The notes: generated from the sequence alone by a model not told the origin. Positions 9,345-44,438 are shown, counted from the first letter of the stretch. The stretch is DNA of 64,000 nt from Synechococcus sp. UW179A (GCF_900473965.1 NZ_UCNJ01000002.1:186001-250000), one strand, 5' to 3'. Numbers and translations are program-made.

Positions 9345-10225
9345 ACCAAGGACTGTGAAGCTGTTTCGCTGTTTTCTTCCTCGATATTGATCGTCCAACT
9401 GAGTTCATTACCGGTATTAGGTGGACCACTGAATGTTCCACTCACCGCTGCTGTGAGCTCCGGTTTCGACGATGTGGCCAACACCACATAGCGCTCATTG
9501 ACTTCGTGACCGGCGCTTGGGTCGAATCCCCTCCATCCTGCTCCGGGAAGGTAGACCTCCGCCCAGGCATGCAGGTCGTACTGTTCCGGTGCCGGTTGCT
9601 GAAGCTGATAACCGCTCACGAAGCGAGCCGGCAGTCCTGCAACGCGACAGCAGGCCACCATCAACATCGCCAGATCGCGGCAGGAGCCGATGCGTTCCCG
9701 CAGGGTGCGGCCTGCCGTCCATGCGGGACCAACATGCCGTTGTGTATACATGACTCGCTCCTGAATCAGCTCCAGCAAATGGTTGAGAAAAGCCAGCATC
9801 TGCTGGTTGCTACCCATCAATGCCTCTTGAGTTAGGTCGATGGCAGAGGGTTCATGCTGTCCATTGGGCAGCCAACCCTCGAGTGCTCCCAGTAGGTCAA
9901 CATTCAGTTGGCCACGTGGAAAGGGCAACGGTGGCTCGAGGTCGTTAAAGCAGAGTTCCAGCGATGGCGCCGGGCGGGTCTCTACACGACTTCGGGCTTC
10001 GAAACACAATTGGTTGGTGCTGCCGGCAAAGTGGAGTCGCTGGACCTCATCGCCACTGGCAGTGAGCACCTCTCGTTGCAAATGTGGCTCGGGCAAAACG
10101 ATGAGTTCATGGTCCAGCAGTGTCTGGAAACCTTGTCCTCGGGGCTTTAGGCAGAGTCGGTGATCGCCGAGGTTGACCGGCGCCTCGTAGCGATAGCTCA
10201 GGCGGTGAATGATGAAAGCGCGCAT
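9332..10225 (-). CDS. Transglutaminase-like protease-fold protein
   Basis: The 297-residue protein has an N-terminal bacterial transglutaminase-like beta domain (about 1-150) followed by a transglutaminase core. The catalytic triad is visible: Cys in RIGSCRDLAMLM, His in DLHAWAEVYLPG and Asp in GFDPSAG. No signal peptide is seen, so it is probably cytoplasmic. It overlaps the alpha-E gene by 28 bases and is the last gene of a three-gene operon with an ATP-grasp enzyme. Comparative genomics has linked this trio to a peptide-ligating or peptide-tagging system, with this enzyme as a predicted amidase/peptidase. The actual substrate is unknown. Confidence 0.88.
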   Translation of the reverse strand: MRAFIIHRLSYRYEAPVNLGDHRLCLKPRGQGFQTLLDHELIVLPEPHLQREVLTASGDEVQRLHFAGSTNQLCFEARSRVETRPAPSLELCFNDLEPPLPFPRGQLNVDLLGALEGWLPNGQHEPSAIDLTQEALMGSNQQMLAFLNHLLELIQERVMYTQRHVGPAWTAGRTLRERIGSCRDLAMLMVACCRVAGLPARFVSGYQLQQPAPEQYDLHAWAEVYLPGAGWRGFDPSAGHEVNERYVVLATSSKPELTAAVSGTFSGPPNTGNELSWTINIEEENSETASQSLVQAA

Positions 10226-11193
10226 GCCGATTCAGATGATGTGCGAGGAAAGTCAGCGCTCATGAAATAGCGCTCCTCGATGAGGCAGTGGAGCCGATTG
10301 AGGTCCTGCTGCAGTTGATCGATCGCTTCGTGAAGACCACCTTCGATGAGGGAGTCGATTCGGACATAGCTCCAGCGGGCAAGCAGTTGACCACGCAAAC
10401 AATCCAGGTCATCCGGTTGCCTCGCGACCGGTTGGGCTTGGATCTGTTGCAACGTGTCGCTGATGCCTTGCAGGCAGAACCGAACCGATCGCGGAAAGAT
10501 TGGATCGAGCAGCAAGAATTGGGCGACGGATATTGGTGTGATTCCCTTCTGCATGCTTTGTCGATACATCTGATAAGCCCCGGCGGTGCGTAGCAGCGTG
10601 ATCCACTGCAGCTCGTCGAGCACCCCTCCGATTTCTTCGGGCATGGGCAACAGCAGGAAGTACTTCACATCGAGGATCCGAGAGGTTTTGTCCGCTCGTT
10701 CCATGAGTCGTCCCAGCTGGCTGAACAACCAGCTCAGATCGCGGCTCAGCGTGGCATCAGTGATGCCATAAAAGATTTGGCAGCCGCGTCGGATGATCCT
10801 CAATTGTTCCTGCGGTGGTTCTTCCCAGATGGTTTCGCCCTTCAGCAGGCTCCAGTGAAGGTCATTGATCTGCTCCCACATCTCCGTGGTAATGACGTCG
10901 CGGATTTGCCGAGCGTTCTCGCGAGCCATGGCGATGCAGCTCACAATGCTGTTGCGGTTGTCTTGATCCAGGAGCAGGAAGTGGATGACATCCTTGGATG
11001 ATCCAGATGGATAAGTCTTGTCGAAGCTGCGGCGGTCGCCGGTGGCATCCACCAAAGGCAGCCACGGTTCGGCGCTGCCTGGAGGGCAGTCGAGAGCCAT
11101 CGATTCGCTGACCTCGAGAAAGCGCGAGATGTTCTCGGCTCGTTCGAGATAGCGATTGATCCAGTAAAGCGAGTCGGCAACCCGGCTCAGCAC
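10198..11193 (-). CDS. Alpha-E domain protein (DUF403)
   Basis: The 331-residue, largely helical protein begins MLSRVADSLYWINRYLERAEN, the hallmark of the alpha-E family. No catalytic motif is known for the family. It overlaps the ATP-grasp gene upstream by 7 bases and the transglutaminase gene downstream by 28 bases, so the three are translationally coupled. Its constant pairing with circularly permuted ATP-grasp proteins suggests it acts as a partner or scaffold of that ligase. Confidence 0.88.
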   Translation of the reverse strand: MLSRVADSLYWINRYLERAENISRFLEVSESMALDCPPGSAEPWLPLVDATGDRRSFDKTYPSGSSKDVIHFLLLDQDNRNSIVSCIAMARENARQIRDVITTEMWEQINDLHWSLLKGETIWEEPPQEQLRIIRRGCQIFYGITDATLSRDLSWLFSQLGRLMERADKTSRILDVKYFLLLPMPEEIGGVLDELQWITLLRTAGAYQMYRQSMQKGITPISVAQFLLLDPIFPRSVRFCLQGISDTLQQIQAQPVARQPDDLDCLRGQLLARWSYVRIDSLIEGGLHEAIDQLQQDLNRLHCLIEERYFMSADFPRTSSESACALSSFTA

Positions 11194-12662
11194 AGCACGG
11201 CCTCCTTTTTCTGCTCGGTTGTGACCAGCTGCTCATCCAGAATCCAGGTGTCCTTGCAGCCGCCACCTTGGGAGGAATTCACCACCAGAGAACCTCGCTT
11301 TAGAGCAACACGGGTGAGTCCACCTGGACTAACCCAATTGCTTTTCCCACGCAGCACGTAAGGGCGAAGATCCACATGACATGGGTAAAGTTCACCTTCG
11401 CTGAGCGATGGCACGGTGGAGAGTTGAAGCGTTGGCTGGGCGATGAAGTTGCGTGGATTCTCCCTGATCTTCGAATCGAAGTCGGCCAATTCTGAGCGGC
11501 TTGCCTGCGGCCCGATCAGCATCCCGTAGCCCCCTGCTTCAGCAACAGATTTCACCACTAGTTGTTCAAGGTTGTCGAGGACGAACTGGCGATCCTCTGG
11601 GCGCGCGCACAGATAGGTGTGGACGTTCTCGATGATTGGCTCCTCACCGAGGTAGTAGCGAATCATTGCCGGCACATGGGCATAGATGAGCTTGTCATCG
11701 GCAACCCCTGTTCCAGGTGCATTGGCGATGGAGACCCTGCCCTGACGCAGCACATCCATGAGGCCGGAGACTCCCAGCATGGAGTCCCTACGAAAAACGC
11801 TTGGATCGAGGAAGTCGTCGTCGATGCGGCGATAGATCACATCGACCCGTGTGCGACCGTTTGTGCTGCGCATCCAAACACTGTTGTCCTCGCAGATCAG
11901 ATCCCGTCCTTCCACCAATGGGATTCCCATCTGCTGGGCCAGGTAGCTGTGCTCGAAGTAAGCACTGTTCAAAACCCCAGGAGTGAGGATCACAACCTGT
12001 GGTGAATCGCTCCAGGGAGCCAGGTCCTGAAGGGTTCGAAACAGGTGGGACGGGTAATCCTCAATGGGCTTGACGGTGCGCCCCTCGAACAGGCTGGGGA
12101 AAAGGCGTTTCATGACCCGTCTGTTTTCTAGGAAATAGGCAACGCCTGACGGACAGCGCAAGTTGTCTTCCAGTACACGCCAGTGGCCGTTGCCATCGCG
12201 AATCAGGTCTAGGCCTGAGATGTGGCACCAACGATTGAACGGAAGTTCAATCCCTTGCATCTGTGGGAGCCAGCCTGATGAACTCTCCACGTCCTCGCGG
12301 TCGATGACGCCGTCACGAATGATCAGCTGTGACCCATAGACGTCGGCGAGGAAGCAGTCGATTGCCTCCAGTCTCTGGAGCAGTCCCTGCTCCAGGGCTT
12401 TCCACTCGCTAAGGGCAATCAGCCGAGGCAGGGGATCGAATGGAAGAATCCGTTCGCTTCCCTCCTGGCCAGAGTCATTGAGGCGAAATGTGGCCCCAAG
12501 CCGGCGCAGCAAGTTGCTTGCAGAGGCATGGTTGCGTTTCAGTTCCGGCAGTCCGATCTGTCCCAATGAACTCAGCAGGGGGGCCAGATTCTTGCGGGGA
12601 CTTGCTGTACCACTGCAGAAATATTCGTCGTAGCCGACCGATGGTCTGTAGTCGGTGAACAT
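11187..12662 (-). CDS. Circularly permuted ATP-grasp protein
   Basis: The 491-residue protein belongs to the circularly permuted ATP-grasp family (DUF404/DUF407). Recognisable blocks are YDEYFCSG near the N-terminus, ADVYGSQLIIRDGVI near residues 110-125, DLIRDGNGHWRVLEDNLRCPSGVAY near 170-195, and VVKSVAEAGGYGMLIGP near 370-385. Enzymes of this fold join a carboxylate to an amine using ATP. It heads the operon with the alpha-E and transglutaminase genes. A GT-N10-AC site (12713-12726) lies about 50 bases upstream. Confidence 0.88.
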   Translation of the reverse strand: MFTDYRPSVGYDEYFCSGTASPRKNLAPLLSSLGQIGLPELKRNHASASNLLRRLGATFRLNDSGQEGSERILPFDPLPRLIALSEWKALEQGLLQRLEAIDCFLADVYGSQLIIRDGVIDREDVESSSGWLPQMQGIELPFNRWCHISGLDLIRDGNGHWRVLEDNLRCPSGVAYFLENRRVMKRLFPSLFEGRTVKPIEDYPSHLFRTLQDLAPWSDSPQVVILTPGVLNSAYFEHSYLAQQMGIPLVEGRDLICEDNSVWMRSTNGRTRVDVIYRRIDDDFLDPSVFRRDSMLGVSGLMDVLRQGRVSIANAPGTGVADDKLIYAHVPAMIRYYLGEEPIIENVHTYLCARPEDRQFVLDNLEQLVVKSVAEAGGYGMLIGPQASRSELADFDSKIRENPRNFIAQPTLQLSTVPSLSEGELYPCHVDLRPYVLRGKSNWVSPGGLTRVALKRGSLVVNSSQGGGCKDTWILDEQLVTTEQKKEAVLC

Positions 12663-12726: not shown

Positions 12727-13658
12727 GGATTCTTGTTGAGGGTGATCTGATCTCCAAAGATCGCAAAATTTGTGTAGTGCTCGGTACTCAATTCGCTGAT
12801 TTGGACTTGATCAGTAGATCACCGAGAGCTGACAAAGAGTTTTCAGCTGTTGGAACAAAAAGACAGCTGATGATCCTGAAAGAGGATGCTGAATAGTTGC
12901 CTTCTGTTTGTGCTTGCAGCAGGAGAACTTCCTGGGGCTTGAAAGGGATCAGTTGCAAGCCTTGTTCGGTCTCCCGTTGAGCCACCTCAGCTGTGTTCCA
13001 AGCAGAAACAGAGCCTGAAGCACTCAGCTATTACTCTTTGATTGAATGAAAAGAGTCGATTGCGAGTCGATTGGCTCAGTGGCTGTAAGCCACTCCCCGG
13101 TATTTCAGCTGGACCACCATCGGACGAGCTTCTGCTTGACGTGTCTGATAAGTCTGCCGCCGATAGGTGAGTTGAAGGGCTGGTTTTTTTACACAATCTT
13201 TATGTTGAGCGTAGGTGTGGCCGCGATAGAGAAGCGTGCTCATGATCAGTTCCCCGAAGCAAGCTCAGGTCCCCGTTCCATGGCCTGAGTCGTCCTGCGC
13301 CTTTCCATTAGGAGAGGTGAACGTTGTGTAGCAACGGCTACTGATTCAGCTTATGGCTGTCGACTTTCTGAGGGTGTTCGGCGTGTTACCAGTTCAGAAA
13401 AGTTTTGGATTTTGTTGTCGATGAAATCGAGTGCCGGCTGCTGATTTGATTTTCTAGAGCTTCGTCGACCGTCCCCTGCACGTTGTGCTCAAGCTGTTCA
13501 GGTTTCAGTGATGGCAGCTGGTGATCGTCAGATGTTCATTGGCGATTGGTCAAATGCTGGTCATGTGTGGATGACCAAGCTCCAACCACTTGGCCGCTTG
13601 GTGAGCAGGCCTCTGGGCTCTTTGCTTATCTGGTCATGAGCAGAGAACGACATCATCA
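12727..13658. other. Long intergenic region
   Basis: Roughly 930 bases without a confident gene. A 65-codon leftward frame (12788-12985) and a 42-codon rightward frame (13511-13639) are open, but neither resembles a known family. A perfect GTA-N8-TAC box lies at 13328-13341, so part of the region is probably the control region of the symporter operon to the right. Confidence 0.5.
13328..13341 (+). promoter_or_regulatory. Perfect NtcA box (GTA-N8-TAC)
   Basis: The sequence GTAGCAACGGCTAC matches the full NtcA consensus. It lies about 320 bases upstream of the first small ORF of the symporter operon. No clear TAN3T hexamer is seen 22 bases away on either strand, so the start point is unknown. 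Confidence 0.55.
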
Positions 13659-13778
13659 ATGAATGAGTTGCTTTGGGCGAGGCTGATCTTTGCGCTGGGT
13701 GCAGTGGTCACGGCCGCCACTGTTGTGATGATCCTTCAAGGACATCTTCACTGGCGCAATAAAGGGAAGCGCGCATGA
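13659..13778 (+). CDS. Small membrane protein before symporter (39 aa)
   Basis: The 39-codon ORF starts MNELLWARLIFALG, continues through a hydrophobic segment, and ends in a basic tail (HWRNKGKRA). This is the shape of a single-pass membrane protein. Its stop overlaps the symporter start in the sequence ATGA, a strong sign of coupled translation. A similar small membrane ORF overlaps the other end of the symporter gene. Some SSS transporters have such small partner proteins, so it may be an accessory subunit. No family is recognised. Confidence 0.6.
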   Translation: MNELLWARLIFALGAVVTAATVVMILQGHLHWRNKGKRA

Positions 13779-15205
13779 CTCTCAATTCCACTCCATTCCT
13801 CGCACCAGGCTTTGCATGGGGTTTGGTTGTGATCTTCTCGGTGCTTTGGATCGCGCTTGGCATCGCTTGGGGTCGTCGCGGTAAAGGTGATGCTGACGAG
13901 TACATGTTGGCTGGCCGCAACATCGGCTTGGCCTTGAGCACGGCCACCCTGATGGCGTCCTGGGTGACCGGTAACACAACACTGTTGGCGCCGGAATTCG
14001 GCTATCGCACTGGTCTCTGGGGCATGTTCAGCTACGCCCTTGCTGGCCTCGGACTGATCCTATTTGCACCTCTGGCGCTGCGAATTAAGCAGCTGATGCC
14101 TAATGGACGGACTAGCGGTGATTTCATCCGTTTGCGATATGGCCGGATGGCGTGGTGGGTGTTCATGTTGATCACCGCGATTTACACCTTTGGTTTCCTG
14201 ATGACTCAGGCGATGGGAGCTGGTCTGCTACTCCAGGCCCTCTCGGGGTTTGATTACCACATTGGAATGTTCGTGGTGATTGGGGTGGCCACGATGTACA
14301 CACTCTTCGGAGGAATGCGCGCAGTGATTGGCACCGATTTCATTCAATCGTTGCTGATCATGGTGCTGCTTGCTGTCGTTGCCGTACTCGCTTTTCGACT
14401 TTTTCCCATGCCTGAGGTGCACAGCCAATTGATGGAGTATCACCCGGATCGCCTCAATTTGCTCCTGCCCGCGGGTTTGTTGATTGCCTGGAATTCTGCG
14501 TTGTTTTCGATGGGTGAGGTGTTTCACAACAACATTTGGTGGTCCCGAGTCTTCGCGAGTCGTCGCAGTGTGGTGATGAACTCTTTTCTGTTGGGTGGGT
14601 TGGCTTGGATGAGTGTTCCGTTGGTGACCGGCTCCATTGGCTTGGTGGCTTTGGCTCGTGAGCTACCGCTGGAACAGGTCAACATGGTTTTTCCTGTAAT
14701 GGCGGCTGATTTGCTAGGGGCTGGTGGAGCTGCTCTGGTGTTTGTGGTGGTCTTTGCTTCGCTGACCTCCACCCTCGACTCACTGCTGGCTTCCACGGCG
14801 GATCTACTGGCCGAGGATGTCTATTTTCGGCTGTTGAGACCTCAGGCCACCGATGTTCAGTTGAAGCATGCGGCCAAGTTGATGGTCGTTGGCTTAGCGC
14901 TGGTCACGCTTCTGTTGTCATGGCCACGGCTTGATTCGCTGGCATCGGTTCTTTTTTTCACTGGGTCATTGGTGGCGTCGACGGTGTGGCCTGTGGCCTG
15001 TGGTTTGTATTGGCGTTCTGCGAATGCGAATGCGGCCATTGCAGCCATGCTCTCGGGCAGCATCGTCGGATTGCTTGCTTACAACCTGATCGCTCCTTAC
15101 TGCGCGGCAGTGTTTTCGGCAGCGCTTTCAGCTTTGGTCATGGTGATCGGCAGTCGCTACTGCTCGGAACGGTTTGATTTCGCACTGCTCGAGGAGGAAG
15201 CATGA
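13775..15205 (+). CDS. Sodium:solute symporter (SSS family)
   Basis: The 476-residue protein has about 12-13 membrane segments and SSS-family features such as DEYMLAGRNIG near residues 48-58, the ASWVTGNTTLLAPEFGYRTG region, and LYTLFGGMRAVIGTDFIQ-like sequence near 175-192. These proteins move small solutes inward with sodium. The family includes urea (DUR3-like), proline and pantothenate carriers; the substrate here cannot be told from sequence. Neighbours that handle carbamoyl or amide nitrogen suggest a nitrogen-containing solute. It overlaps small membrane ORFs at both ends. Confidence 0.88.
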   Translation: MTLNSTPFLAPGFAWGLVVIFSVLWIALGIAWGRRGKGDADEYMLAGRNIGLALSTATLMASWVTGNTTLLAPEFGYRTGLWGMFSYALAGLGLILFAPLALRIKQLMPNGRTSGDFIRLRYGRMAWWVFMLITAIYTFGFLMTQAMGAGLLLQALSGFDYHIGMFVVIGVATMYTLFGGMRAVIGTDFIQSLLIMVLLAVVAVLAFRLFPMPEVHSQLMEYHPDRLNLLLPAGLLIAWNSALFSMGEVFHNNIWWSRVFASRRSVVMNSFLLGGLAWMSVPLVTGSIGLVALARELPLEQVNMVFPVMAADLLGAGGAALVFVVVFASLTSTLDSLLASTADLLAEDVYFRLLRPQATDVQLKHAAKLMVVGLALVTLLLSWPRLDSLASVLFFTGSLVASTVWPVACGLYWRSANANAAIAAMLSGSIVGLLAYNLIAPYCAAVFSAALSALVMVIGSRYCSERFDFALLEEEA

Positions 15206-15351
15206 CCATGGTTTCCAACCTCTTGGCTGTGTTGATCGATGCCACTTGGTTCAGCATTGTTTTGCTTGGTAGCCAGGTTGCTTTGGTCCTGTCCGTGATC
15301 GTGCTCTTGTTGATCTGGTTGGTGGAGTGGAGAGGTGGCCGGCTCTGGTAA
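15202..15351 (+). CDS. Small membrane protein after symporter (49 aa)
   Basis: This 49-codon ORF starts within the stop of the symporter gene (ATGA overlap). It encodes a mostly hydrophobic peptide, MTMVSNLLAVLIDATWF followed by a second apolar stretch and a charged end (VEWRGGRLW). One or two membrane helices are likely. Coupling to the symporter suggests a subunit or modulator. No family is recognised. Confidence 0.6.
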   Translation: MTMVSNLLAVLIDATWFSIVLLGSQVALVLSVIVLLLIWLVEWRGGRLW

Positions 15352-15528
15352 GTGTTTACAACGAACAAAAACCGATGTTTTTGTATTGAGTCGAACTTTT
15401 TATCGGGTTTTCTGGTTAAGAAGTTCGTTTAGGTGTGGACGGAGAAATGTTGGATTGGTTACCGATAGAGGATTGGCAGCCTTACGACGCGCGCTGATTG
15501 GCAAACAGCGTGTGAATGCTTTTCTGCA

Positions 15529-16644
15529 ATGACGCATAACCCTCTTGCACTCTTGGATGAGCTGAAGGATCCGATTCGGTTCAAGCCGTTGGGTCCGGAT
15601 GTTTTCGGCAGAACCCACCCTCAGGAACTCCTTGCTGCCATCGCCGAAGATGGTGAACCACTGCTGGACCTGGTGAATCAGCATGTTGTCTCGATTCAAG
15701 CTTTTCGCTCGAAAACGCTGCTTCAGCTTTTTCGACTTGCTGCCAAGTACGAGAGCAATCCAGATCGTTATTGCCGGCACAACACCCCGCTGACGGGAAA
15801 GATCTTGATCAATGCTTTCTACGAGCCAAGCACGCGGACACGTTTGTCCTTCGATAGCGCATGGCATCGTCTTGGTGGTGATTCGATCAACATCACCGAC
15901 CGCAGCACCACAGGCATCGCCAAGGGTGAATCCTTGGAGGATGTTGCGCATATGTTCAACAATTACGGCGATTGTGTCGTGCTGAGAGATGGCAACCCGC
16001 ATGCGGTCTATGCGATGAGCTCAACCCTGCGTATTCCAATCATCAACGCAGGCAATGGCATTGATGAGCATCCAACGCAGGCCATGGCTGACCTGTACAC
16101 CATTTTTAAATGGCGTCCTTCTCTTGCCAAGCCTTCAGTGCCTGCCTCGGATCGCATTCGTATTGGCATTATTGGTTTGCCATCAAGGATGCGCACTGTG
16201 CGCTCACTTCTGCGGATCCTGGCCAAATTTCCTGAAGCAGTTGAGGAGGTGGTGGTCATCCATGCTGCTGATCTCGATTCAAGTACTTCTGTCTTCGACC
16301 CTGATCAACTTGAAGAGTTGGTGACGGCAGGACTCAATGTTCGCGTCAGCACTGACTTACATAGGGAGATTCCAGAGCTTGATGTGATTTATATCAATGC
16401 AATTTCATGGGTGGGTGACACCTATGAGGTGCACGGAAAGGGTTTCCGTCTTACTCGAGACATGCCCTACAAGCCTGAAGCGATTGTGCTCCACCCCCTC
16501 GCTCGTGGTCCTGAATTGTGTACGAGCCTCGATGACACCGCTCACAACTGGTATTTCAGCCAGGCTCGTGGAGCAGTGTTCCTGCGAATGGCCCTACTGA
16601 CCTGCATGGTCAATCGGGCTGAACGGGTTATGGACGTCGTCTGA
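15529..16644 (+). CDS. Aspartate carbamoyltransferase-like enzyme, altered acceptor site
   Basis: The carbamoyl-phosphate half is intact: STRTR at residues 101-105, a KGESLED loop at 132-138 matching the PyrB 80s loop, HPTQ at 181-184, and HPLARGPE at 322-329. The region where PyrB has its aspartate-binding TRVQKER motif instead reads INAISWVGDTYEVHG (about 289-303), so the amino acceptor is probably not aspartate. At 371 residues it is longer than typical PyrB (about 306), mainly at the N-terminus. It is followed after nine bases by an AsnB-type gene. The reaction is inferred to be carbamoylation, or the reverse, of an unidentified amine. Confidence 0.8.
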   Translation: MTHNPLALLDELKDPIRFKPLGPDVFGRTHPQELLAAIAEDGEPLLDLVNQHVVSIQAFRSKTLLQLFRLAAKYESNPDRYCRHNTPLTGKILINAFYEPSTRTRLSFDSAWHRLGGDSINITDRSTTGIAKGESLEDVAHMFNNYGDCVVLRDGNPHAVYAMSSTLRIPIINAGNGIDEHPTQAMADLYTIFKWRPSLAKPSVPASDRIRIGIIGLPSRMRTVRSLLRILAKFPEAVEEVVVIHAADLDSSTSVFDPDQLEELVTAGLNVRVSTDLHREIPELDVIYINAISWVGDTYEVHGKGFRLTRDMPYKPEAIVLHPLARGPELCTSLDDTAHNWYFSQARGAVFLRMALLTCMVNRAERVMDVV

Positions 16645-16653
16645 ATCAATCTT

Positions 16654-18678
16654 ATGTGCGGAATCGGTGGCGTTTTCAATGCCAGAAGGCATCAGTCAGT
16701 TGATCGACAACTGCTCGTCAACATGGCAGCTATTCAGGCCCATCGTGGTCCTGATGGATATGGAGTCGAGTGCCTTGATGAGATGGGGGTTGGTTTTTGC
16801 CATGCTCGCCTCTCGATCATTGATCTGAATGAATCGCGGGCCCGCCAGCCATTCCTCACGTCTGATGGCCAGGTGCTGATGGCTCACAACGGCGAGTTCT
16901 ATGACTTTCAGCGCATCCGTGCTGATCTCACTGCTCAGGGAGTTCACTTCAGCACTAAGAGCGATTCGGAGATTTTGCTGCGGATGTATCAGATGCAGGG
17001 TCTTGAACGCACCCTGCCATTGCTGAGAGGCGAATTTGCCTTTGCTTTGTTTGATCGTGAACAGGATTGTCTTTATCTCGTAAGGGATCGTTTTGGTGTT
17101 AAACCTCAGTACTGGACGTTGACATCAGAGGGATTTGTCTTTGGTTCCGAGCTCAAGGTGCTCTTTGCCCATCCTGCTGTTGAGCGCCGCTTTACTTCTG
17201 AGGGCTTGTTTCATCAATTGATGCAGACCATGGTCCCCGGGACCACCGCATTCGCCGGTGTGCATCAGGTCAAACCCGGCTACGTCCTTAAGGTCCAGCG
17301 CTCCGGAGAACATTTAGATGTCTCGGAATGGCCCTATTGGGATGTCAATTTCCCTCGTAAGGATGAGCGGGATCGCAGTCTCACAGAGAGCGATCACATC
17401 GCAGCTGTTCGCGCGGCGTTACTTGAGGCGGTGGAGATGCGAATGGTCGCTGATGTTCCAGTCGGTTGTTATCTCTCCGGTGGGATTGATAGTTGCTCGA
17501 TTCTTGGTCTCGCATCGGCTGTAAGCCAGTCTCCTGTTAAGGCTTTTACCATTGGGTTTGATGATGCTCGTTACGACGAATCACCCATTGCCAAAGAGAT
17601 GGCAGAAGCCACAGGAGCTGAACAGGATCTTCTGAGATTGTCAGGTCGAGAGCTTTACGGTCATATGGAAAAGACGTTGTGGCATACCGAGCGAACCATC
17701 TACAACACCTTGGCTGTTGCGAAATATTTGATGAGTCGTCATGTCAACAATGTTGACTACAAAGTTGTGATGACTGGGGAAGGCTCGGACGAGCTTTTTG
17801 GTGGATATCCCGCTTTCCGTCGCGACATGTTCCTCCATGGTCTTGATGATCTCCCGGAGGAGGAGCGTGGGCTTTGGGAGTCTCTGCTTCAGCAGTCCAA
17901 TGCTCTTGTTCAGGGGGCGATGTTGTCGGCGGATCAGGTGGATGATCCAGATCTAGAGGCTGTTGTTGGGTTTACACCCAGTTGTCTTCAGCCATGGCTT
18001 GCTTGTGCTCCACTGGTTCCGGACCTGTTAGCCCCCGAGCATCGCGCGGCACTTACTGGTTACAGCCCTGGCAAGGCAATTGCAGCACAGTTGGATTCAA
18101 ACCAGCTGGAAGGACGCCATGCACTTGATAAGGCTCAATACGTTTGGATTAAAACGATGCTTGAGGGTCAGATCCTGACCTGGGGTGGTGATCGGGTTGA
18201 TATGGCGAATTCGATGGAGGCACGGCCTGCATTCCTTGATCATCACCTAGCCGCCACTGCAGTTCAAGTTCCGCCGGAGTTGAGGATTAAGGGAAAAACC
18301 GAGAAATATGTGTTGCGGGAAGCGATGTCTGGTTTGCTCCCTGAAGTTTTATACACCCGTGAGAAGTTTGCTTTTATGGCACCTCCCGCCCATGTCGACT
18401 CTGAGAAATGGAAGGAGATGAAGTCTCTGGCAGAGGACTATCTCAGTCCTAAGGCGATTGATGCTGCCGGTTTGCTGAGTCAGGAGGGTGTTCAGGCGTT
18501 GTTTGATCGGCATGAGGACCCTGCTACCAGTGATGCGGAGCGGGTGCAGATGGATGCAGTGATCAATCATCTGCTTGGTGTGCAGATGCTGCATCGCTTG
18601 TTTGTCGCAACTGATATTCCAGAACTGGCTCGTCAGGAAGCCGACCGACTGGGTTGGAGTGTCCTGATGCCGGTCTAA
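16654..18678 (+). CDS. AsnB-type glutamine amidotransferase
   Basis: The 674-residue protein begins MCGIGGV, with Cys2 as the glutaminase nucleophile after Met removal, and has RGPDGYG and NGEFYDF in the class-II glutaminase domain. The second domain has the ATP-binding SGGIDS loop near residue 270 and the GEGSDELFGGY motif. It therefore moves ammonia from glutamine to a carboxylate activated as an acyl-AMP. It may be plain asparagine synthase, but its place between a carbamoyltransferase-like and a carbamoylase-like gene suggests a special amide product. Confidence 0.85.
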   Translation: MCGIGGVFNARRHQSVDRQLLVNMAAIQAHRGPDGYGVECLDEMGVGFCHARLSIIDLNESRARQPFLTSDGQVLMAHNGEFYDFQRIRADLTAQGVHFSTKSDSEILLRMYQMQGLERTLPLLRGEFAFALFDREQDCLYLVRDRFGVKPQYWTLTSEGFVFGSELKVLFAHPAVERRFTSEGLFHQLMQTMVPGTTAFAGVHQVKPGYVLKVQRSGEHLDVSEWPYWDVNFPRKDERDRSLTESDHIAAVRAALLEAVEMRMVADVPVGCYLSGGIDSCSILGLASAVSQSPVKAFTIGFDDARYDESPIAKEMAEATGAEQDLLRLSGRELYGHMEKTLWHTERTIYNTLAVAKYLMSRHVNNVDYKVVMTGEGSDELFGGYPAFRRDMFLHGLDDLPEEERGLWESLLQQSNALVQGAMLSADQVDDPDLEAVVGFTPSCLQPWLACAPLVPDLLAPEHRAALTGYSPGKAIAAQLDSNQLEGRHALDKAQYVWIKTMLEGQILTWGGDRVDMANSMEARPAFLDHHLAATAVQVPPELRIKGKTEKYVLREAMSGLLPEVLYTREKFAFMAPPAHVDSEKWKEMKSLAEDYLSPKAIDAAGLLSQEGVQALFDRHEDPATSDAERVQMDAVINHLLGVQMLHRLFVATDIPELARQEADRLGWSVLMPV

Positions 18679-18743
18679 ATTCTTTGATCAGCATTAAACC
18701 GTCGCAATGACGACAGGTTTTTACGTTCAACCAGGGCATACTC

Positions 18744-20063
18744 ATGCTCCTTTTGAACGTAAGGATCCAGACATTGCCGCAGCTGCTCTACGCACGAAAT
18801 CATCGTTTCCCTTCACAGCAAGCAGCGCGAACTTCAGCCGTCCGTCCCAATCAAGAGCGGTTGATCCGTTTTTTGAATCAAATGGCAGCCATTGGCATGC
18901 AGCCCGATGGGTCTGTTTGTCGACGTGGATTTAGTCAAGCTGACGTGATCGGTCGCAATCAGTTGATGAGCTGGATGGGTGACCTTGGTTTGCAGGTCCG
19001 AGTTGATGCGGCAGGCAATTTGATCGGACGCTTGGAAGGATTAGACCCCGCCTTGCCCGCTTTAGTTACAGGTTCCCATCTCGATACTGTGCCCACTGGC
19101 GGGCGATTTGATGGAGTTCTTGGCGTACTGGCTGGGCTTGAAGCCGTGCATGCTCTCCTTGATGAAGGCATCCGACTGCGCCATCCCCTCGAGCTTGTGG
19201 CCTTCGCGGATGAAGAATCAACCATGGTTGGTTGCAAGGGAATGGCCGGCAGTGCATCGCCTGATCCCTCTGCTTTTATCACTAGCAATGGTGAGTCGAT
19301 TCAAAAAAACCTTGAATGCATCGGTGGAAACTGGACTGACTTGCCTTCTGCCTGTCGGCCAGATTCTGCGATTGCGGCATTTCTTGAACTTCATGTGGAG
19401 CAAGGCGCTGTTCTTGAACAACGCGCTGATGACATCGGCGTCGTCGAGGGAGTGGTGGGTCAGCGCAGGTTCACGATTCGTGTGATCGGCCAGGCCAACC
19501 ATGCTGGAACCACTCCAATGAGCATGCGTCAAGATGCGCTCGCAGCTGCATCTCGGATTATTTTGGCCATTGAGCAGATGGCCCAATGCCATCCCGGCGA
19601 TCCTGTGGCCACTGTTGGCCGGCTCGAGGTTTGGCCGAACGCAGCCAATGTTGTTCCGGGTGCCGTCACCATGACGGTGGATCTTCGAGACCTTGACCCC
19701 CAGGTTCTTGACCAGTTGTTGGACTCTTTGACACAGAGCCTTGAACGAATTGCACTTCAGACGGATTGTGAGATTCGTTTAGAGCCTCAGTTTGAGGTGG
19801 CGCCGACTCCGGCTTCTGCTCTAGTGATGGCTGCAATCGATGACGCTGCCTCATCTCTTGGCCTCTCCCGAAGTTATATGCCAAGCCGTGCCAGTCACGA
19901 TGCTCAGGAGATGGGTCGACGTTGGCCGATGGGCATGATTTTTGTTCCCAGTCGAGGTGGATTGAGTCATTCGGCTGCTGAATTCACCACCGATGATCAA
20001 TGCTGGGCTGGCACGGCTGTGCTTCTTGAGACATTGCAACGCCTTGACCGGGCCTTGCCATGA
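18744..20063 (+). CDS. M20-family carbamoylase / allantoate amidohydrolase-like
   Basis: The 439-residue protein is a zinc hydrolase of the hydantoinase/carbamoylase (AllC/HyuC) group. Metal ligands and motifs are visible: GSHLDTVPTGG, RFDGVLGVLAG, FADEESTMVGCKGMAGS, ELHVEQGAVLE, the dimerisation segment ANHAGTTPMSMRQDAL, and a late HSAAEFT. Members remove a carbamoyl or ureido group and release ammonia and CO2. The first 30-40 residues are poorly conserved, so the start at 18744 is uncertain. The stop overlaps the next gene by four bases. Allantoate, N-carbamoyl amino acids and N-carbamoyl-beta-alanine are possible substrates. Confidence 0.85.
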   Translation: MLLLNVRIQTLPQLLYARNHRFPSQQAARTSAVRPNQERLIRFLNQMAAIGMQPDGSVCRRGFSQADVIGRNQLMSWMGDLGLQVRVDAAGNLIGRLEGLDPALPALVTGSHLDTVPTGGRFDGVLGVLAGLEAVHALLDEGIRLRHPLELVAFADEESTMVGCKGMAGSASPDPSAFITSNGESIQKNLECIGGNWTDLPSACRPDSAIAAFLELHVEQGAVLEQRADDIGVVEGVVGQRRFTIRVIGQANHAGTTPMSMRQDALAAASRIILAIEQMAQCHPGDPVATVGRLEVWPNAANVVPGAVTMTVDLRDLDPQVLDQLLDSLTQSLERIALQTDCEIRLEPQFEVAPTPASALVMAAIDDAASSLGLSRSYMPSRASHDAQEMGRRWPMGMIFVPSRGGLSHSAAEFTTDDQCWAGTAVLLETLQRLDRALP

Positions 20064-20734
20064 CCTTCTCGATTGTTGCCCGTGATCCCTGCAATGGTCG
20101 ATTCGCTATAGCTGTTGCGAGTTGCCATCTCGCAGTCGGATCGACAGTTCCTCATCTTCGATCCGAAGTAGGTGCAGTGGCTTCTCAAGCGCATACCAAT
20201 CCTTATCTCGGCATTCGCGGTCTCGAAAGGCTCCAAGCAAATGCCCAGGCTGATGTGGTGCTGGAAAGTCTGCTCCAAGATGATCCATATCATGATTATC
20301 GTCAATTTCATCTCATTGATTCCGATGGCCGCACGGCTGCATGGACCGGACGCTGTTGCCAGGCCTGGTCAGGTCATCGTCATCAACACAATCTCTCGAT
20401 CGCTGGGAATTGCCTAATCGGCGATGAGGTGTTGGATGCAATCGAACATGCCTTTGTGACCAGTAATTCCGAGTGGAAGCTTGGACGGCGAATGATGCAT
20501 GCTCTGCAGGCTGGTGAAGCAGCGGGTGGTGATTTCCGGTCGATAACATCAACCTCTGCGGCGCTGCAGGTGAGCGGCGAGGCCTCTTTCCCGTTACTTG
20601 ATTTGAGAGTTGATTTTCGTGAGGGGGCAGTTGCAGAATTGATGGAAATCTATGAGAGGAGTCAGGATCTTTGGGCTCAAGAGTGGCGTGATGGTTTCTC
20701 CGACCTGCCCAAGCTTGATCAACTTGCGGCCTGA
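20060..20734 (+). CDS. DUF1028 protein (Ntn-hydrolase-like)
   Basis: The 224-residue protein starts MTFSIVARDP and has AVASCHLAVGSTVPHLRSEVG and SQAHTNPYLGIRGLERLQ, the DUF1028 signature. The family is thought to have an Ntn-hydrolase-like fold, but its reaction is unknown. It overlaps the carbamoylase gene by four bases, so the two probably act in one pathway. Confidence 0.85.
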   Translation: MTFSIVARDPCNGRFAIAVASCHLAVGSTVPHLRSEVGAVASQAHTNPYLGIRGLERLQANAQADVVLESLLQDDPYHDYRQFHLIDSDGRTAAWTGRCCQAWSGHRHQHNLSIAGNCLIGDEVLDAIEHAFVTSNSEWKLGRRMMHALQAGEAAGGDFRSITSTSAALQVSGEASFPLLDLRVDFREGAVAELMEIYERSQDLWAQEWRDGFSDLPKLDQLAA

Positions 20735-21169: not shown

Positions 21170-21898
21170 TTATGAGTCTCTCAAGGCAAGCTTCAGTGAA
21201 CCAATTTGAACCATGTGTTCATTAACGCGAGACATCCCTGCCGCAGTCAAGGTCTTGACTGCAGTGCAGGTATTATCAACTCGAACCTCAAGACTTTTGA
21301 TCTCCAGATGCTGCGCCGATGACACAGCAAGACTTGGCCCTTCTAGGAAATCGATCGATTCAGTCCATGGCTGCGGAACTAATAGGTTGCGCATTATCTG
21401 TTTATGAGCATCATCCATCCCGACAATGACTTGTGTCACTGCCTGAATGCCCGCACTGTTCTTTGGGGCAATTGGACCACTCGTTCGCGTGGGATAAAAG
21501 GTGTGACAGAGCTGAAGTGCCGTTTTGCCAACGCTTAGGCCTGGTAGTCCTACGCGTGTGTAAATCGGATTTCCTTGAATCACAACTGCGTCAAAAGGAT
21601 CATGCTCGATTCCACGTGCAACAAGCTCGCTTTCAAGGCTGTCGAGGTTTGTTGGCTCAAATGTCAACCAGTCATCGAGTGCATTCTGCTGGCGGTCTAC
21701 AGCACAGAGTTCGAGGTTCAGATTGCCGAGCCTGATGCCTGCGGTGGAGAAACCTGGTTGTTCAGAGAGTGGCCAGCCCACCGGTAACCCGATGTCAAAC
21801 AGTGCCTTGCTGACCACTCGCAGGTCTTCGATCGTGAGAACGGTTGTGATGTGGTCAGCGAAGGCGACCAATGATTGCGTTGACTCCACTGGTTGCAC
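21170..21898 (-). CDS. Glyoxalase/VOC-like protein
   Basis: The 242-residue protein shows a glyoxalase-like layout. The first half contains FADHITTVLTIEDL, GWPLSEQPGFSTAGIRLGNLNLELC and ELVARGIEHDPFD, typical of the VOC superfamily. A second, weaker unit follows, with VTQVIVGMDDAHKQIMRNLL. A His/Glu metal set is only partly evident. Substrate and role are unknown. It stands alone between the DUF1028 cluster and urease. Confidence 0.6.
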   Translation of the reverse strand: MQPVESTQSLVAFADHITTVLTIEDLRVVSKALFDIGLPVGWPLSEQPGFSTAGIRLGNLNLELCAVDRQQNALDDWLTFEPTNLDSLESELVARGIEHDPFDAVVIQGNPIYTRVGLPGLSVGKTALQLCHTFYPTRTSGPIAPKNSAGIQAVTQVIVGMDDAHKQIMRNLLVPQPWTESIDFLEGPSLAVSSAQHLEIKSLEVRVDNTCTAVKTLTAAGMSRVNEHMVQIGSLKLALRDS

Positions 21899-22081: not shown

Positions 22082-22105
22082 TGAATCACCTGCAGGGGTG
22101 ATTCA
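22082..22105 (-). terminator. Hairpin at the ureC stop codon
   Basis: TGAATCACC (22082-22090) pairs with GGTGATTCA (22097-22105) around a six-base loop. It sits on the ureC stop codon at the end of the ureDABC operon. No T-run follows, so termination is plausible but not certain. Confidence 0.45.
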
Positions 22106-23812
22106 CAACAAGAGGTAGCGCTGGGCGAGTGGCAGCACTTCGGCGGGCTCGCAGCTCAGCAGTTCACCATTGGCGAACACCTCATAGGTCTGAGGGTCGA
22201 CGCTCATCTTGGGCAGGTTGCTGTTGAGCTTCAGGGAGCTTTTATTCACGCTGCGTGTGTCCGTCACCGCTACACAGGTTCGTTCAAGCCCCAATTGTTG
22301 TTGGAGATCGGCATCCATCGCAGCAGCGCTCATAAAGGTGAGGCAACTGGGGGCGAGAGCTTTGCCGAAGGCAGCGAACATTGGGCGGCCGTGCACCGGG
22401 CCCGGGGTGGGAATCGAAGCGTTGGCGTCACCCATCTGAGCCCACACAATCGAGCCGCCCTTGATCACCAGCTCAGGGCGGATGCCAAAGAAGCCAGGCT
22501 TCCAAAGCACCAGATCAGCGAGCTTGCCGGTTTCGATGGATCCCACTTCTTTGCTGATGCCATGGGCGAGTGCAGGATTGATGGTCACCTTGGCGATGTA
22601 GCGCTTCAGTCGATGGTTGTCATTGCGACTGGAGTCTTCAGGCAGCGGGCCGCGTTGAACCTTCATTTTGTGCGCCGTCTGGAAGGTTCGTGTGATCACT
22701 TCCCCGACACGACCCATCGCCTGGGAGTCACTGGCAATAATTGAGAAGGCTCCGAGGTCGTGAAGGATGTCTTCGGCCGCAATTGTCTCTCGGCGGATGC
22801 GCGATTCGGCAAAGGCCACGTCTTCGGGAATCTTCGGGTCTAGGTGGTGGCAGACCATCAGCATGTCGAGATGCTCCTCGAGCGTGTTGGTGGTGTAGGG
22901 CCTGGTGGGGTTGGTGCTGCTCGGCAACACATTGGCTTCGCCGCAAATCTTGATGATGTCCGGTGCATGGCCGCCACCGGCGCCCTCGGTATGGAAGGTA
23001 TGAATCGTTCGACCCTTGATGGCGGCAATCGTATCTTCAACGAAACCAGCTTCGTTGAGCGTGTCGGTGTGGATGCACACCTGCACATCCATGCGGTCGG
23101 CTACTGAAAGGCAGGCGTCGATCGATGCTGGTGTCGTGCCCCAGTCTTCATGCAGCTTGAGGCCGCAGGCTCCCGCGCGCACCTGCTCTTCAAGGGCCTC
23201 GGGTGTGCTGGCATTGCCTTTGCCGAAGAATCCCAAGTTCACGGGAAGTCCTTCGGCTGCCTGAAGCATCCTGCCGATGTGGAAGGCTCCGGGGGTGCAT
23301 GTGGTGGCGTTGGTGCCGGTGGCCGGTCCTGTTCCGCCGCCCATCAGGGTGGTCACGCCGCTGGCCAGCGCCGTTTCAATTTGCTGGGGGCAGATGAAGT
23401 GGATATGGGTATCGATTCCACCTGCTGTGAGGATGTGGCCCTCGCCCGCAATCGCTTCGGTGCCTGGGCCTACAACGATGGTGACGCCTTGCTGTGTGTC
23501 GGGGTTACCGGCTTTGCCGATACCAACGATGCGGCCGTCTTTGAGGCCTACATCGGCTTTGATGATTCCCCACCAGTCGAGGATCAGTGCATTGGTGATC
23601 ACCGTGTCAACGGCTCCTTCGGCCCGTGCTGTTTGCGACTGGCCCATGCCGTCACGAATTACCTTGCCGCCGCCGAACTTCACTTCATCGCCGTAGACGG
23701 TGCAGTCTTGTTCCACCTCCAGGATCAGATCCGTGTCAGCAAGACGTACGCGGTCGCCCGTTGTGGGGCCGTAGGTCTCGGCGTAAGCCTGTCGGGAAAT
23801 GCGGTAGGCCAT
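22103..23812 (-). CDS. ureC: Urease alpha subunit
   Basis: UreC holds the dinuclear nickel site that hydrolyses urea to ammonia and carbamate. In this 569-residue sequence the ligands and active-site residues can be placed: H136 and H138 (THIH), carbamylated K219 in [10 protein letters not shown]248 in CIHTDT, H274 in [11 protein letters not shown]322 in MVCHHLD (active-site flap) and D361 in IASDSQAMG. It is the last gene of ureDABC, four bases after ureB. Confidence 0.98.
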
Positions 23813-43752: not shown

Positions 43753-44411
43753 AGATCGGGGCGACCGGCATCACGCAGAGCCGCATCACGAATGCGACAG
43801 CTGTCGCAGACGCTGCACGGTCTGCTCCCTCCGCTGTAGCAGCTCCAGGTGGAATCGATCGGCACACCCAGGCGCAGGGCTTCCTCCACGATGCGTTGCT
43901 TGCTCCACTGCACCAGCGGTGCCCAGAGTCGAGGGCCATGTCCCTCGCGGCCAACCCTGCTGCTGAGGTTTGCCAGGGTCTGGAAGGCCTCCAGATAGTC
44001 GGGCCGACAATCTGGGTATCCCGAGTAGTCCACGGCATTGACCCCAAGAACGACTCGCTCGGCGTTGCGAGCCTCGGCCAGGCTGAGGCCAATGCTGATG
44101 AACACAGTGTTTCTGCCCGGGACGTAGGTGTTGGGGATGACTCCCTCCTGCACTCCTTTGGTCGGTAAATCCTGCTGCTGATCGGTCAGAGATGATCCAC
44201 CCCAACTCGCCAGGTTCACGCTGATCGTGTGGTGCTCGGCCAGGTTCAGAGCTTCGGCGATGGTGTTGGCGGCCTGCAGTTCCCGCCGATGGCGCTGGCC
44301 GTAATCGAAGGAGAGCCCGATCACCCGCCCGCCCGCTTCCATCGCCAGGGCTGCCGCTGTGGCGGAGTCCAGTCCGCCAGATAGAAGGGCAATCGCTGTG
44401 AAATCGGTCAT
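43731..44411 (-). CDS. queC: 7-cyano-7-deazaguanine synthase
   Basis: QueC makes preQ0, the precursor of the tRNA base queuosine. The ATP-binding [11 protein letters not shown] motif is near the N-terminus, followed by [29 protein letters not shown] and the C-terminal zinc site [15 protein letters not shown]. The ATG at 44411 ([13 protein letters not shown]) is chosen; frames extending to 44456 would overlap the divergent ecotin gene. queE lies further left-to-right on the same strand at 50673. Confidence 0.94.
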
Positions 44412-44438
44412 GCTGTGCATTCTGTTGTCCATGGGGTG

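Follow-up and report, generated by a model that had tools for sequence, protein, structure and literature searches.

Why would a cyanobacterium encode a sodium/solute symporter, a carbamoyltransferase, an amidotransferase, a carbamoylase-like hydrolase and a protein of the DUF1028 family one directly behind the other? This question is raised by a locus of Synechococcus sp. UW179A (GCF_900473965.1; 3.06-Mb genome), found in a stretch of 64,000 nucleotides (NZ_UCNJ01000002.1:186001-250000) that was analyzed over its full length and is called the window here. The initial annotation, made from this sequence alone, offered two ideas: a cycle in which an amine is carbamoylated, a carboxylate amidated and the product later reimported and hydrolyzed, comparable to the N-acetylglutaminylglutamine amide (NAGGN) system but with a carbamoyl cap; or salvage of a ureido compound from seawater. 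Our analysis favors the cycle, which is well supported by co-conservation of the genes across phyla, by osmotic-stress neighbors and by a match to a known osmolyte, N-carbamoyl-glutamine amide (CGA). Judging from sequence, the cassette probably serves the synthesis, uptake and breakdown of CGA or a near homologue. It consists of seven rightward open reading frames (ORFs) between 13659 and 20734 on the + strand, in agreement with the initial annotation in content, orientation and place:

13659..13778, + strand: micro-ORF 1, 39 aa, one predicted membrane segment, overlapping the start of the symporter gene
13775..15205, + strand: SSS-family Na+/solute symporter (SSS; PF00474, E=1e-31), proposed to take up or recapture the solute
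15202..15351, + strand: micro-ORF 2, 49 aa, membrane protein, overlapping the stop of the symporter gene
15529..16644, + strand: carbamoyltransferase (CT) with aspartate carbamoyltransferase (ATCase) fold (OTCace_N and OTCace domains), proposed glutamine N-carbamoyltransferase
16654..18678, + strand: AsnB-like glutamine amidotransferase (GATase and Asn_synthase domains), proposed to amidate the alpha-carboxylate
18744..20063, + strand: M20-family N-carbamoyl-L-amino-acid amidohydrolase (best NCBIfam match ErtE), proposed to remove the carbamoyl cap
20060..20734, + strand: DUF1028 protein (PF06267, E=4.5e-63), predicted N-terminal nucleophile (Ntn) hydrolase, proposed amidase removing the 1-amide

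The genes are closely packed, with 9 bp between CT and AsnB, 65 bp between AsnB and M20, and a 4-bp overlap between M20 and DUF1028; the largest gap, 177 bp, separates micro-ORF 2 from CT. A counterpart of micro-ORF 1 (containing LIFALGAVVTAATVVMI) precedes the symporter in nearly all orthologous loci, in some of them via an alternative start only, and micro-ORF 2, with a conserved LVGSQVALVLSVLVLLLIWWVEWRNGRVW, is kept in most. Considering that both are retained as short membrane proteins, they are more than chance reading frames.

In the route that we propose, CT would carbamoylate L-glutamine with carbamoyl phosphate, giving N-carbamoyl-L-glutamine, and the AsnB-like enzyme would use ATP and glutamine nitrogen to amidate the alpha-carboxylate, giving CGA. 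The symporter with its two micro-subunits would import CGA or recapture what leaks out. Upon a hypo-osmotic shift or nitrogen demand, DUF1028 (in gammaproteobacteria, an isochorismatase-type amidase) would remove the 1-amide and M20 would take off the carbamoyl cap, with glutamine, NH3 and CO2 as the end products. A carbamoyltransferase and a terminal amidotransferase are the minimal chemistry that leads from glutamine to CGA.

Conservation of the cassette within and beyond cyanobacteria

A sequence search of 99 related genomes for close homologues of CT (E below 1e-150) returned 14 further copies in 13 genomes, all from one family. The initial annotation had proposed neighborhood conservation of the five families as a check, and SSS, CT, AsnB, M20 and DUF1028 indeed occur together in all 14 copies, in several different genomic settings, with DUF1028 inverted in a single rearranged copy. 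This co-conservation holds for every cyanobacterial copy with sufficient flanking DNA. The distribution among cyanobacteria is patchy, since CT was found in 17 of 386 sampled genomes, all Cyanobiaceae. Among the carriers are Synechococcus sp. RCC307, Cyanobium and many Prochlorococcus; in the latter, CT, AsnB, M20 and DUF1028 are present without a cassette-type symporter alongside. One genome (G018) bears two complete and diverged five-gene copies (L036 and L037), one by the urease genes and the other elsewhere. Cassettes of the cyanobacterial type were also seen in a binned gammaproteobacterium (L056) and a binned Trichodesmium (L084), 82-83% and 62-64% identical to the window, respectively; these are probably misbinned Synechococcus and Prochlorococcus DNA.

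Outside the cyanobacteria, the CT profile matched at 62-67% identity in Kangiella, Aliikangiella, Pleionea, Idiomarina, Aliidiomarina, Pseudidiomarina, Pseudoalteromonas, a Thiotrichaceae metagenome-assembled genome and Pseudokordiimonas, genera that are mainly marine or saline. In a random sample of gammaproteobacteria, 23 of 369 genomes were positive. An SSS-CT-AsnB core, in this order, is shared by Kangiella, Idiomarina, Aliidiomarina, Pseudidiomarina, Pseudoalteromonas, Pleionea and Pseudokordiimonas, and most gammaproteobacterial loci that we read follow the order M20, isochorismatase-type amidase, SSS, CT, AsnB; some have no M20 within the flanks read. We found DUF1028 in cyanobacterial loci only, as a stand-in for the isochorismatase-type amidase. 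The symporter gene, directly upstream of CT in cyanobacteria, is flanked by the amidase and CT genes in many gammaproteobacteria.

Gammaproteobacterial cassettes are also usually preceded by a small, fast-evolving protein with a C-terminal membrane segment and no Pfam match, located before SSS (or M20). Perhaps this protein is a symporter partner like the cyanobacterial micro-ORFs. Its reading frames include the following, with equivalents in other loci:

L092, 6922-7455: small membrane protein
L114, 6961-7449: small membrane protein
L110, 7021-7362: small membrane protein

Predicted chemistry of the four enzymes

The initial annotation had left room for CT being the only aspartate carbamoyltransferase (PyrB) of the genome. 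This is not the case: the genome holds three genes of the ornithine/aspartate carbamoyltransferase family, and CT falls in a separate clade outside both PyrB and ArgF, so that we rejected its assignment to either. CT shares much with PyrB, including the fold (Z about 32 in structure comparison) and the carbamoyl-phosphate site, of which S101-T104, K132, R153, H181 and Q184 are invariant in the family alignments; we take the corresponding E. coli PyrB residues to be S52-T53-R54-T55, K84, R105, H134 and Q137. The equivalent of PyrB Arg167 is retained as well. CT differs from PyrB in the 240s loop, where every aligned CT sequence has NA(I)A/S instead of the TRIQ (with Arg229 and Gln231) that PyrB has in the same genomes, as well as in an N-terminal extension of about 40 residues; the genomes also carry PyrB and ArgF. 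Presumably, Arg229 and Gln231 hold the aspartate side chain. CT scores below the PyrB equivalog cut-offs (186 bits vs 236.95 for TIGR00670 and 185 vs 263 for PRK00856). The retention of Arg167 together with the loss of Arg229 and Gln231 suggests an acceptor with a neutral side chain and a free alpha-carboxylate, and CT would therefore act before AsnB. We propose a specificity other than for aspartate, with glutamine as the acceptor.

The AsnB-like protein passes the broad asparagine synthase model TIGR01536 (422 bits vs 267) and fails PRK09431 (265 vs 499). It scores below the cut-off on the NAGGN amidotransferase model TIGR03104 (296 vs 570) and on that of the XrtA amidotransferase. The TTxR motif of E. 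coli AsnB (T322-T323-x-R325), which we assume to act in the aspartate half-reaction, is missing: TTIRAS of 1ct9 aligns with NTL--A/G, and YNTL is conserved in all cassette AsnB sequences aligned. The nearest analogy is the NAGGN system, in which an AsnB-like enzyme likewise amidates an N-capped glutamine derivative at its C-terminal carboxylate, yielding an uncharged compatible solute. There, however, the cap is an acetyl group added by a GNAT-type enzyme and a dipeptide ligase takes part, whereas here a carbamoyltransferase would supply a carbamoyl group and there is no ligase; no acetyltransferase-type partner was noticed in the cassette. As to whether this is the only asparagine synthase of the genome, a second full-length AsnB-type gene is present, and the answer is partial in that this gene is divergent and likewise lacks TTxR. 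We consequently dropped the argument that a second AsnB proves the cassette enzyme special, which is useful only in part. Since GatB is present, asparagine may come from the tRNA route. A weak Asn_synthase profile match elsewhere in the window (44217-44423, - strand) belongs to an unrelated frame resembling QueC-type 7-cyano-7-deazaguanine synthase.

Of the two hydrolases, M20 passes the carbamoylase model TIGR01879 (401 bits vs 204), and its nearest solved structure is the N-carbamoyl-L-amino acid hydrolase 3n5f. Its best NCBIfam match, of the same subfamily, is the N-carbamyl-L-glutamate amidohydrolase ErtE (424 bits), but the cut-off of that model (520) is not reached; the other cassette genes are presumably not those of ergothioneine degradation. 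For DUF1028, the predicted fold resembles the solved DUF1028 structure 2imh (Z 29; 28% identical in the structural alignment), Taspase-1 (Z 16), and proteasome beta subunits and HslV (Z 11-12). Thr2 is invariant in 12 sequences, and residue 2 of the model aligns with residue 1 of many proteasome beta subunits. The protein is thus predicted to be an Ntn hydrolase with a four-layer fold and an N-terminal threonine nucleophile, alike in both respects to these relatives; processing would expose Thr2. A PADLOC search with DUF1028 gave no match.

The link to CGA and osmotic stress

CGA is the osmolyte of Ectothiorhodospira marismortui, equivalent to E. mobilis (PMC1224877), and a genome survey named it as a candidate solute of phototrophs without betaine and ectoine genes, raising as an open point how halophilic phototrophs that lack such annotated genes cope with salt (PMC7824335). 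Photosynthetic reaction center genes were present in 6 genomes of the gammaproteobacterial class sample, and 2 of these 6 carry CT. The family of these two phototrophs proved to be rich in CT, with 41 of its 47 genomes positive against 23 of 369 in the class sample (Fisher p ~1e-33, uncorrected for phylogeny). Phototrophs made up 11 of 26 family members screened, and CT was found in all 11, one match being partial. One phototroph encodes a HiPIP that is 100% identical over 71 residues to PDB 1hpi, which we take to be the HiPIP of Ectothiorhodospira vacuolata, and on this basis the CT-rich family is Ectothiorhodospiraceae; the match links one genome to E. vacuolata, and none to E. marismortui/mobilis. 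The HiPIP structure paper (Benning et al. 1994) is cited in PMC5439954. CGA is thus both the predicted product of the cassette and an osmolyte known from the lineage in which CT is densest. In the open-access literature searched, three papers name CGA, and we found no published genes for it, no account of this gene combination, and no report of CGA in cyanobacteria.

Several neighbors of the cassette point to osmotic stress. Several loci of Ectothiorhodospiraceae (L194, L201, L202 and, from the class sample, L258) encode a mechanosensitive channel of the MscS type immediately or shortly behind AsnB. In Idiomarina, Kangiella and others, a MarR regulator near the cassette is 36-52% identical to MarR proteins that 8 of 15 ectoine loci from other genomes encode ~1-3 kb upstream of ectC, the site of the ectoine-operon regulator. 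We take this regulator to be of the EctR/CosR type. MarR regulators also adjoin the cassette in most of the MscS-bearing loci, and at ~30% identity to that of Idiomarina they are of a different type.

Several observations weigh against CGA as the product. The presence of the cassette in the producer E. marismortui we infer from its genus, and that the acceptor is glutamine and not some other neutral amino acid is guesswork based on CGA and the similarity to ErtE. Much of the CT-rich family is presumably Thioalkalivibrio. Studies of that genus discuss betaine and sucrose, and those that we consulted make no mention of CGA. In one phototroph (L205, genome G519), AsnB is not adjacent to CT, and no homologues of AsnB, M20 or the amidase were found within ~9 kb on either side; in another genome (G483), CT matches from position 103 on only. 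Next to the cyanobacterial copies, we found neither a regulator nor a channel of the osmotic type. Finally, the cassette and ectoine synthesis occur together in 2 genomes where 3.2 were expected, and we rejected an association of the cassette with ectoine synthase.

A cassette of the same logic could make a different N-carbamoyl amino acid amide, e.g., from asparagine, citrulline or a non-protein amino acid, serving as compatible solute or nitrogen carrier, with the CGA of Ectothiorhodospira made otherwise or being one of several products. We consider this unlikely, though it is the strongest of the alternatives: the substrate pockets of CT and AsnB were judged from motifs only, and CT differs by about 35-40% between cyanobacteria and gammaproteobacteria. 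CGA, however, is the only such compound known and comes from the lineage with the densest CT, and the M20 proteins from both lineages give scores on the model for N-carbamyl-L-glutamate amidohydrolase. Catabolic salvage, with SSS importing an N-carbamoyl or ureido compound, M20 and DUF1028 hydrolyzing it and CT running phosphorolytically, would account for the grouping of symporter, carbamoylase and amidase genes and for the adjacent urease genes. Yet CT and AsnB belong to biosynthetic families that consume carbamoyl phosphate and ATP, respectively, and they adjoin each other in nearly every copy, even where a symporter or carbamoylase is not adjacent: Prochlorococcus keeps CT-AsnB-M20-DUF1028 without the symporter alongside, and some gammaproteobacterial loci have no M20 in the flanks read. 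Nor do neighbors such as MscS and the ectoine-type MarR fit nutrient salvage, so that this second idea of the initial annotation has become rather improbable. Least probable is a specialized metabolite, such as a signal or siderophore-like compound, tailored by CT and AsnB. AsnB homologues do often act in natural-product tailoring, and a hydroxyamidotransferase and a beta-lactam synthetase are among the solved relatives of the cassette protein; but no scaffold-building enzyme is part of the cassette in any lineage read, the cassette occurs in the small genomes of Prochlorococcus, and matched hydrolases with a symporter suggest a bulk metabolite that is recycled. The synthesis, recapture and breakdown of CGA or a near homologue remains the likely function.

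Regulation, neighboring genes and significance

The initial annotation placed the gene set behind a perfect NtcA box. The sequence in question lies ~450 bp from the SSS start:

13328..13341, + strand: GTA-N8-TAC match GTAGCAACGGCTAC, exact, probably not functional

The match itself stands, but a regulatory role does not follow from it, because the window contains 5 such matches against 1.6 expected, and in 19 orthologous loci, the 700 bp before SSS contain none. We rejected NtcA control of the cassette as unsupported on these grounds, and a role as a nitrogen store is therefore without regulatory evidence here. A promoter scan gave a single promoter-like site, on the opposite strand and scoring below shuffled sequences, and terminator predictions were at chance level.

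On one side, the cassette adjoins an Alpha-E (DUF403) and circularly permuted ATP-grasp gene pair (10198-12662, - strand), here and in most syntenic Synechococcus copies; this pair is probably not part of the system, as it is absent beside copies located elsewhere. On the other side lie a 242-aa ORF without Pfam or NCBIfam match (21170-21898, - strand) and the urease alpha subunit gene (22103-23812, - strand). Many relatives likewise have urease genes by the cassette, and some copies are away from them.

CGA is a nitrogen-rich, uncharged osmolyte with four nitrogens per molecule, and in cyanobacteria it has apparently never been looked for. The cassette looks like its long-missing machinery, common to marine picocyanobacteria and to halophilic purple and sulfur bacteria, and, being a defined set of genes, it makes the pathway directly testable. 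On balance, we lean towards the view that some marine populations of Synechococcus and Prochlorococcus make and cycle CGA. They would do so by means of a glutamine N-carbamoyltransferase and a terminal amidotransferase, both new, and of a DUF1028 amidase, which would be the first role assigned to that family. If true, this would account for the way in which halophilic phototrophs lacking annotated betaine or ectoine genes deal with salt, and it would assign functions both to DUF1028 and to an ATCase-like family likely to be annotated automatically as aspartate carbamoyltransferase. It would also mean that some of the most abundant phototrophs of the ocean contain a hitherto unmeasured nitrogen-rich metabolite, with marker genes by which to find it.

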